Shown here piece after piece: positions 11,110 through 13,484 of a stretch of 64,000 nt of DNA. The stretch spans positions 3,778,507 through 3,842,506 of the forward strand of contig NZ_JH976537.1 in NCBI RefSeq assembly GCF_000309385.1, in the 5' to 3' direction. The notes under the pieces were generated by a model. It was not told the origin of the DNA, made no database searches, and saw nothing but the letters and a program-made list of their open reading frames with translations. The stretch is from Nodosilinea nodulosa PCC 7104. GTDB lineage: Bacteria; Cyanobacteriota; Cyanobacteriia; Phormidesmidales; Phormidesmidaceae. The position numbers and the translations under genes were made by a program. The stretch's first letter is position 1, and the number at the start of each line of letters is the position of its first letter.

Positions 11110-12273
11110 ATGGTTTTCCCCGATGCCCCCCCAGCAGTGCTAGTTTTAGCCGACGGTTCAGTGTTTCGGGGCTGGTCCTTTGGGGCACCGGGCACCGTCA
11201 TGGGAGAGGTCGTTTTCAACACCGGCATGACGGGATATCAAGAAGTCATGACCGACCCCAGCTACTGCGGCCAGATTGTCACCTTCACCTACCCAGAGCT
11301 GGGCAATACCGGCGTCAACCCCGACGACGAAGAGTCGAGCCGGCCCCAGATTAGGGGGGCGATCGCCCGCAACATCTGCGAAATACCCAGCAACTGGCGC
11401 TCTACCCAATCGCTGCCCAACTACCTCAAAACCCACAAAATTCCCGGTATTTTTGGCATTGACACCCGCGCCCTCACCCGCAAGATCCGCACCGCAGGGG
11501 CCATGAACGGAGCCATTTCCACCACCGTGCTCGACCCCCAGGAACTGCTGCGCCAGCTTCAGGATGCTCCGCCAATGGCTGGATTAAACCTGGTCGATCA
11601 GGTGAGCACCACTGAGATCTACGAGTGGACCGAAGGCACCGACCCCGTCTGGGCCTTCGGTCCTACCGAGCCGCTGCCTGGAGACGAGACCCCGCTGACG
11701 GTGGTGGCGGTTGACTTTGGCGTCAAGCGCAATATTCTGCGGCGTTTGGCCAGCTATGGCTGTCGGGTCATTGTAGTGCCCGCCAGCACCACCCCAGAGC
11801 AAATCATGGGCTACCAGCCCGACGGCATTTTTCTCTCCAATGGCCCCGGAGATCCCGCAGCGGTAACCAATGCCCCAGAGCTAGTGCAGGCGCTTCTAAA
11901 CTACTCGTTGCCCACCTTCGGCATCTGCATGGGCCACCAAATTTTAGGGCTGTCCCTGGGCGCTTCGACCTTCAAATTGCGGTTTGGGCACCGGGGGCTT
12001 AACCAGCCCTGCGGCCTGGAACGCCAGGTGGAAATTACCAGCCAAAATCACGGCTTTGCCCTCGATGCCACCTCCATCCCCGAAGATACGGTGACGGTCA
12101 CCCACCTAAACTTAAATGACCAGACCGTCGCTGGGCTAGCCCACAAAACCCTGCCGCTGTTTTCGGTGCAGTACCACCCCGAGGCCAGCCCTGGCCCCCA
12201 CGATGCCGACTACCTGTTTGCTAAATTTGTAGACACCATGCGCACCCATCGCCAGCAGCTTCTGCCCATCTGA
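11110..12273 (+). CDS. carA: Carbamoyl-phosphate synthase small (glutaminase) subunit
   Basis: CarA hydrolyses glutamine and channels ammonia to CarB for carbamoyl phosphate, feeding arginine and pyrimidine synthesis. At 387 residues it has the standard length. The N-terminal domain begins [17 protein letters not shown]. The class I amidotransferase domain carries the nucleophile Cys273 in GICMGHQ and the His/Glu pair in [12 protein letters not shown]. carB is not adjacent, which is common in cyanobacteria. The divergent upstream region (10886-11109) holds a short direct repeat of GGGACAG. Confidence 0.97.
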
Positions 12274-12495
12274 TGTCAAGACTTGTTGGGGCTTTGACTG
12301 CCTGGTTCGGCGGTCTCTCCGCTGGAGCTAGCAAAAATTAGCCAAACCGCTATATGCTATCTGTCTACAGCAGGGTGCTGGTTCTGGGCTGGTTTCAGGT
12401 TTGGCTCAGCGGCAGACTTTGCAGCTAGTCCGTACGGTTTTACCCCTTGCGGGTAAGGATATCCTGACCTATATTTAACGTCGAACTGGAGCGCC

Positions 12496-12502
12496 GAGGA
12501 GG
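12496..12502 (+). promoter_or_regulatory. Strong Shine-Dalgarno GAGGAGG deciding the STAS start
   Basis: GAGGAGG is a near-perfect anti-SD match. It is followed by six bases and then an in-frame ATC at 12509. No ATG, GTG or TTG lies in frame between the upstream stop (12476) and 12632. Confidence 0.65.
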
Positions 12503-12508
12503 TTTCCC

Positions 12509-12886
12509 ATCGCTGAATCTCTAACCCTGACCGTAAGTTTACGAGGCACTCGCGATGTCAGGGGAACCTATCAACTTTTTCGCCTCACGGGTCTGCTAGA
12601 TGCGTTCTCGGAGCCTGCATTTCGCAAGGCGATGACCAAGTACGTGGATGCAGGGCCGACCAACATTATCCTTGACCTAGCGGCCATTGACTTTGTCGAT
12701 AGCTCAGGGCTGGGCGCGCTCGTACAGCTGGTTAAAAAAGCCACCACCGAAGGCGGTACGGTGCAGGTCGTAACCAACCCCCGAGTAACCCAGACGGTGA
12801 AGCTGGTGCGGCTTGAGAAATTTCTATCGCTTCAGCCCTCGGTCGAAGACGCGATCGCAAACCTGGAAAAACCGCCCAGTGAATAG
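12509..12886 (+). CDS. STAS-domain anti-sigma factor antagonist, apparent AUC start
   Basis: The protein (125 residues from the ATC) is a single STAS domain of the SpoIIAA type: first strand LTLTVSLRGTRDV, ILDLAAIDFVDSSGLGALV with the phosphorylatable Ser65/Ser66 pair, and KLVRLEKFLSLQPSVEDA at the end. These proteins bind anti-sigma kinases in a partner switch controlled by serine phosphorylation. The first canonical start in frame, ATG 12632, would remove the first strand and helix, which are part of the domain. The coding frame continues upstream to 12509, directly after a strong ribosome-binding site. I therefore place the start at ATC 12509, which is inference; the domain call is firm. 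Confidence 0.8.
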   Translation: MAESLTLTVSLRGTRDVRGTYQLFRLTGLLDAFSEPAFRKAMTKYVDAGPTNIILDLAAIDFVDSSGLGALVQLVKKATTEGGTVQVVTNPRVTQTVKLVRLEKFLSLQPSVEDAIANLEKPPSE

Positions 12887-12920
12887 CCCTAGCGTTTTGC
12901 TGGTCTAGGCAGAGATAGTC

Positions 12921-13484
12921 GTGGCTGAAATGTGCCCTGAGACTCCTCCTAGCCTGCAGTGGCTGCTTCAGTTCAGCGCTCACAGCTCTGCTATGGCCAT
13001 CTCTCCAGCGCAGGTTCAGTCCTTGTCTCCGGTAGCTCTGGCCTATATCGGCGATGCCGTGTACGAACTATTTGTACGGGGCGCTTTTTTGCTGCCTCCC
13101 CAGCGCATTCAGGCCTTTCATCGGCGGGTTGTCAACCAGGTGAGGGCCGAACAGCAGGCCTATCAGGTGCAGCAGCTCATGCCCCTGCTGACAGCGGCAG
13201 AGCAGGATTTGCTGCGTCGGGGCCGCAACGCGTCCTCCCGTGGCCCCCGGCGGGTAGACAGTCAGATCTACCAGCAGGCCACTGGGTTTGAGGCCCTGGT
13301 GGGCTACCTCTATCTAACCAATCCGGTGCGCCTGGTGGAGTTGCTCAGCGTTTTAGATTTGACCTCCACGGACAATTCTCCAGCGGCCAACCCTTCAGCG
13401 GCCAACCCTTCAGCGGCCAACCCTTCAGCGGCCAACCCTTCAGCGGACAACCCTTCAGCGGACAACCCTCCAGCGGACAGCTAG
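12921..13484 (+). CDS. mrnC: Mini-ribonuclease III
   Basis: This is the catalytic RNase III domain without a dsRNA-binding domain, as in MrnC of Gram-positives and cyanobacteria, where it matures 23S r[21 protein letters not shown] holds the signature acidic helix, and [10 protein letters not shown] the second acidic motif; [11 protein letters not shown] lies between. The GTG at 12921 gives 187 residues; ATG 12993, just before the domain, is a plausible alternative, and neither has a clear ribosome-binding site. The last 35 residues are a pentapeptide repeat ([10 protein letters not shown]) absent from most homologues. Its stop overlaps the recQ stop. Confidence 0.88.
13381..13480 (+). repeat. 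15-bp tandem repeat in the mrnC tail
   Basis: Six full copies start at 13381, 13396, 13411, 13426, 13441 and 13456, plus a partial at 13471. Four read CAGCGGCCAACCCTT, then the GCC changes to GAC. Each unit is in frame and encodes five residues. Confidence 0.95.

Follow-up and report, generated by a model that had tools for sequence, protein, structure and literature searches.

Comparative evidence for a class-wide AUU, AUC, or AUA start codon in a cyanobacterial STAS-domain anti-sigma factor antagonist gene

The window analyzed here is a 64,000-nucleotide stretch of a cyanobacterial genome of 6.9 Mb, closely related to Nodosilinea and Leptolyngbya strains. On its forward strand it carries a gene for a STAS-domain protein of 125 amino acids (12509 to 12886, including the stop codon TAG at 12884 to 12886), and the frame from 12509 translates to IAESLTLTVSLRGTRDV... 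The first codon of this frame is ATC (12509 to 12511), preceded by the Shine-Dalgarno (SD) sequence GAGGAGG (12496 to 12502) and a 6-nucleotide spacer, TTTCCC (12503 to 12508), which ends in the pyrimidine pair CC at positions -2 and -1 (12507 to 12508). An in-frame stop codon, TAA, is located upstream (12476 to 12478). From this stop to the ATG at 12632 to 12634, which encodes residue 42 and is the first canonical codon in frame, there is no in-frame ATG, GTG, or TTG. A sequence-only reading had described the SD sequence six bases before the ATC and the lack of a canonical start, and on re-reading the sequence both descriptions were found to be exact.

Upstream of the gene, the hexamer TATATT (12470 to 12475) is a candidate -10 box for a promoter of the gene itself and is separated by a 17-nucleotide spacer from a weak -35-like sequence, TTGCGG (12447 to 12452). 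TATACT-like hexamers (at least 5 of 6 bases) were present at -65 to -30 in 75% of 209 orthologues, compared with 22% of shuffled sequences, which is consistent with a short leader. The assignment of TATATT as the -10 box is suggestive only, because a consensus scanner gave no sigma-70 site in the window. No Rfam element was found within 12270 to 12930.

Judging from profile and fold, the product is an anti-sigma factor antagonist of the SpoIIAA/RsbV kind, with partner switching putative in this organism. The protein matched the Pfam STAS profile PF01740 with 65.3 bits (cutoff, 22.6; E value, 5e-18) and the anti-anti-sigma profile TIGR00377 with 60.0 bits (cutoff, 53.45), and its score of 46.5 for the SpoIIAA equivalog TIGR02886 lay below the cutoff of 114.75. 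The AlphaFold2 model (pLDDT, 88.6) had as its best PDB match 1th8_B, which is SpoIIAA (Foldseek E value, 2e-8; TM score normalized to the query [TMq], 0.81), so that the relation to SpoIIAA was found by profile and by fold. The protein shares with SpoIIAA and RsbV the fold and the serine pair, here within a D-S-S-G motif, but differs from them in its longer N terminus, a short extra strand at residues 3 to 6 of the model, and the start codon. The other N-terminal elements of the model are strands at residues 11 to 18 and 21 to 30 and a helix at residues 35 to 48.

The Synechocystis orthologue of the window gene is, by residue correspondence, Ssr1600 of Synechocystis sp. PCC 6803. When L226, a sequence inferred to be probably from the Synechocystis group, was counted from codon 7, which is TTG in this sequence, 19 of the 20 residues numbered in the Ssr1600 paper agreed, the exception being I57, which is L. 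In the passages searched of that paper (Kurkela et al. 2025, PMC12329169), Slr1861 is described as the kinase that phosphorylates Ssr1600, an anti-SigC antagonist, and partner switching was shown for the two. The same passages give a TTG initiation codon and report that overexpression with an ATG at the site of this TTG yielded an active protein. They also describe a dosage effect, in which low levels rescue delta-rpoZ and overexpression slows growth in high CO2, and they make no mention of an AUH (AUU, AUC, or AUA) start or of its conservation.

To place the window gene in a wider context, orthologues were collected across Cyanobacteriia. The gene was detected in 287 of 291 class genomes at an E value of at most 1e-20, including all 261 genomes of good quality; the four genomes lacking it are 62 to 87% complete. 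It was likewise present in the relatives searched, with G031 alone among 57 giving just a distant, paralogue-level match. In the outgroup classes of the phylum that were searched, only distant STAS paralogues were obtained (E values of about 1e-9 to 1e-11), and thus no start-codon polarity is available beyond Cyanobacteriia. The resulting set of 209 distinct sequences covers many families, with some family names assigned from genome size and sequence, and includes marine Synechococcus/Prochlorococcus-like genomes of 1.7 Mb. At the aligned start codon, ATT was present in 129 orthologues, ATC in 66, and ATA in 14, and none of the 209 carried ATG, GTG, or TTG. The alignment with relatives that the sequence-only reading had proposed as a check therefore returned ATH in every case, which strongly supports its main suggestion of AUC initiation. 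Its other suggestion, a recent ATG-to-ATC mutation, fails because no orthologue has ATG at this codon.

The context of the aligned codon marks it, by sequence comparison, as the true start. A purine-rich SD match precedes it in 209/209 orthologues (AGGAGG in 163), mostly at a distance of 5 or 6 nucleotides. A pyrimidine is found at -2 in 206 and at -1 in 205 of the 209; changes at these two positions are nearly all C-T exchanges, and positions -3 to -5 are free to vary. Two pyrimidines at -1/-2 have been suggested to signal initiation in cyanobacteria (Sazuka and Ohara 1996, cited in PMC5622118).

Four other readings of this codon were weighed against initiation at AUH. Conservation of ATH only is also what a conserved isoleucine would show, and in 49 of the 209 orthologues the open frame contains a canonical codon farther upstream, as would suit a longer, upstream-started protein in which codon 1 is internal. 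In 123 species, however, an in-frame stop lies at most 33 nucleotides upstream (at -12 in 65 of them, mostly as the TAG of TAGGAGG), which excludes an upstream extension there. No canonical codon separates this stop from codon 1 in 119 of the 123, and in 54 none follows through codon 28. The internal-isoleucine reading is thereby refuted for most species, and the unconserved upstream amino acids, the conservation of the SD sequence in different frames (spacings of 5, 6, and 8), and the conserved -2/-1 pyrimidines also speak against it, leaving it most improbable overall. Entry into the frame from a short upstream open reading frame (ORF), by programmed frameshifting or read-through of its stop, is less credible still. 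A strong SD sequence can stimulate frameshifting, and GTG or TTG is often present in some frame of the leaders, but 38 species lack, in every frame, an ORF from ATG, GTG, or TTG that extends to the site, and 151 lack one from ATG; frameshifting is thus not a general explanation. Moreover, an ATG occurs within the last 35 nucleotides of the leader in just 38 of 209 orthologues, and a conserved slippery motif was not seen.

A start farther downstream, at codon 7 or at ATG 12632, is very unlikely, even with the published TTG start and numbering of Ssr1600 in its favor. Of the 209 orthologues, 33 have TTG at codon 7, but most have CTG (107) or CTA (50), with TTA in 9 and other codons in the rest, so that there is no conserved start at this position, and the codon lies about 23 nucleotides from the SD sequence. 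A start there would also drop the short model strand at residues 3 to 6, and every orthologue has E or D at residue 3. For ATG 12632, the sequence-only reading had noted that the STAS domain would be truncated. This holds, and the loss is slightly greater than the first strand and helix that it named, since the model places three strands before residue 42 and the first helix across it; the strands and half of this helix would be removed. In agreement with the broken domain, the form starting at ATG 12632 scored 45.3 bits with TIGR00377, below the cutoff. An ATG in another register in relatives was searched for and not found. Finally, a recent mutation or sequencing error confined to this genome has practically nothing to recommend it, as the genomes that are 98% identical (L003 to L005) and all other orthologues, from many independent assemblies, carry ATH where a base error at 12509 to 12511 had been considered. 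The AUH codon thus stands as the start, and the published TTG of Ssr1600 is probably codon 7 of the present alignment; because TTG is found there in only 33/209 orthologues and is about 23 nucleotides from the SD sequence, the published assignment is probably six codons short.

The conservation of the codon was further examined by parsimony on a tree of 209 tips, which gave about 19 substitutions at the third base, all of them exchanges among T, C, and A and none producing G; the first two bases were unchanged throughout. At codons 5, 8, and 9 of the same gene, where third positions are weakly constrained, roughly 25 to 50% of the changes go to G, and so 0 of 19 at the start codon is unlikely by drift. 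Initiation at any AUN codon inserts fMet, so that AUG would leave the protein unchanged. The benefit of avoiding AUG must thus lie in initiation and not in the protein. The neighboring gene carA has an ATG start in the same loci; apparent non-ATG starts of carA in seven loci were an artefact of alignment extrapolation, with an ATG just upstream in each. Elsewhere, AUG is favored as a start: in a survey of 36 genome groups, only 1 switch from AUG to AUU was found among 61,358 ancestral AUG starts (PMC5622118). Comparison thus indicates that AUH is the real and ancient start of the Ssr1600 family, held at AUU, AUC, or AUA by selection, and not a mutation.

A 7-bp mRNA stem can form between CCCTGAC (12525 to 12531, +17 to +23) and GTCAGGG (12557 to 12563, +49 to +55), both on the forward strand, and is the likely cause of the near-invariance of four-fold sites in codons 2 to 12, whose diversity within the window genus is 0.04, compared with 0.46 in the rest of the gene. 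Among 3,869 possible 7-bp stems in -12 to +99, this stem ranked highest by fraction paired (0.805). It showed 13 double Watson-Crick exchanges on single branches (mean for stems, 1.5), 82.4% paired cells (shuffled, 78.0; standard deviation [SD value], 0.6), and 40 double-change cells (shuffled, 19.8; SD value, 3.0), where co-changes can partly reflect base-composition shifts. When synonymous codons were redrawn by clade usage, 42 of 118 representatives had all seven pairs (null, 2.0) and 66 had at least six (null, 16.4; maximum of 26 in 400 draws). AGG occupies codon 18 in 45 of 100 core representatives, compared with 20 of 412 arginine codons elsewhere in the gene. Versions of the stem slid along the sequence were at most 46% paired, and the flanking pairs +16/+56 and +24/+48 do not form.

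Energy predictions for the stem were mixed. RNAalifold on the alignment of +1 to +66 returned no consensus structure, and the best single-strand fold of the window sequence is another structure, which pairs the SD-start region and is no more stable than shuffles (z score, +0.46). For +14 to +58, the mean minimum free energy was -11.7 against a null of -10.9 (SD value, 0.3). Marine Synechococcus/Prochlorococcus lack the stem, and several small families show it only weakly. Overall, sequence covariation indicates that in most lineages the +17 stem is kept beyond the constraint of protein and codon usage, and its effect on initiation is putative. A further hairpin inside the 25-nucleotide loop (+25 to +27/+32 to +34) was considered and fell below the null. 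As a separate observation, pairing is also possible between the 3' arm, GUCAGGG, and the start-codon region at +2 to +8 (12510 to 12516 with 12558 to 12564), and it exceeds the synonymous-codon null, so that a two-state structure is possible; the preference for U at the third position of codon 2 has other explanations.

Stem-loops in coding sequences reportedly activate initiation, as Jagodnik and colleagues are said to have described in 2017. Structure-assisted start selection has been proposed to act at about +16/+17, at the edge of the initiating ribosome (START, PMC7664666), and the first paired base of the present stem, +17, falls at this position. Like those stem-loops, it is placed at the edge of the ribosome footprint, but it is coupled with a noncanonical start codon and was detected by evolution, not by energy.

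A second AUH-started gene was found in a divergent paralogue of translation initiation factor IF3 (infC2). All 34 distinct sequences of this paralogue begin with AUH (ATC in 27, ATT in 4, and ATA in 3), always with pyrimidines at -2/-1 and with an SD-like sequence ahead; no stem stands out downstream of the start. The paralogue is found in many cyanobacterial genomes and is the sole IF3 type found in the window genome; in G000, it lies at C1:355837-356052 and C1:3478679-3478903 (L282/L292 and L287/L294; relatives, L281 to L321). In G000, G014, G027, and G152, only the divergent type was matched (IF3_N E value, about 1e-24) and no canonical-type IF3 match (about 1e-33) was obtained, suggesting that these genomes may rely on AUH-started IF3 genes. 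In most cyanobacteria, canonical infC starts with ATG or GTG where the start is clearly readable, and infC-type feedback is therefore not general there. Since infC2 is also AUH-started, IF3 is a natural candidate for the discriminating factor, and IF3-dependent control of the STAS gene is plausible, by analogy, and the best mechanism that we can offer.

AUH starts are known as rare oddities, such as those of infC and pcnB in Escherichia coli. The IF3 gene infC of E. coli has an AUU start with IF3-dependent autoregulation and, like the STAS gene, keeps AUH over AUG behind a strong SD sequence; in both, selection acts on initiation and not on the protein. In contrast to infC, the STAS gene encodes a sigma-regulator antagonist and not IF3, so there is no feedback by its own product and any IF3 control would act in trans. 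It also differs from infC by the +17 stem and by conservation through a whole bacterial class.

Considering the data as a whole, the best explanation, and one that we hold to be probable, is that AUC 12509 is a selected ancestral start, as indicated by comparison, whose initiation would most likely be rejectable by IF3. Ordinary fMet-tRNA would initiate at AUC 12509 with a third-base mismatch. The strong SD sequence, the -2/-1 pyrimidines, and, in most lineages, the +17 stem-loop would load and position the 30S subunit, and the near-cognate codon would still allow IF3 to reject initiation, as in infC. The output of the anti-SigC antagonist may then depend on free IF3 and 30S subunits in addition to transcription. 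As a result, the antagonist level would be capped and the release of SigC limited, tying the SigC partner switch to the translation state or growth.

The main rival to an IF3-rejectable start is that AUH is a fixed attenuator, which would hold the antagonist at a low, constant ratio to its kinase (Slr1861 type) irrespective of IF3. Expression drops with a weak start codon, and the dosage sensitivity of Ssr1600 noted above from the passages of PMC12329169 would fit such a role. Nevertheless, a weak SD sequence or promoter would be a simpler route to low expression, and a near-perfect SD sequence almost everywhere is an odd partner for a weak codon unless the discrimination between codons is itself exploited. 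AUH is also retained in all 209 orthologues, with no drift to GUG or UUG combined with a weaker SD sequence. A fixed attenuator is hence possible but rather doubtful. A broader form of the preferred reading, in which the AUH start, SD sequence, and +17 stem make up one ancient IF3-responsive module, possibly two-state, that couples the SigC partner switch to the translation machinery, with the IF3 paralogue using the same start-codon logic, is advanced only tentatively and is unlikely to hold in full.

If true, an exception-free, class-wide AUH start would show that the identity of a start codon can be conserved as a regulatory element in genes other than that of IF3. Gene callers limited to ATG, GTG, and TTG must misplace the STAS start throughout the class, and if the published Ssr1600 coding region is six codons short, as is probable, constructs starting at TTG would lack the native initiation control. 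In a proteogenomic study of Nostoc 7120, eight revised genes have peptide-based ATA or ATT starts (PMC8557916). An AUH start for the STAS gene was unmentioned in the openly accessible literature searched. Class-wide conservation, the -2/-1 pyrimidines, the +17 stem, and the link to Ssr1600 all go beyond the sequence-only reading.

Some further features of the neighborhood were observed. Of 80 named loci (L048 to L127), 76 have the mini-III RNase gene and 58 have carA in linkage with the STAS gene, and G240 has two full-length copies of the STAS gene, on C29 and C264. In the window, the mini-III RNase ORF (12921 to 13484) contains in its 3' end a 15-bp tandem repeat, CAGCGGCCAACCCTT (13369 to 13479), in 6 to 7 copies with about 97% match, which encodes S/P-A-A/D-N-P repeats.
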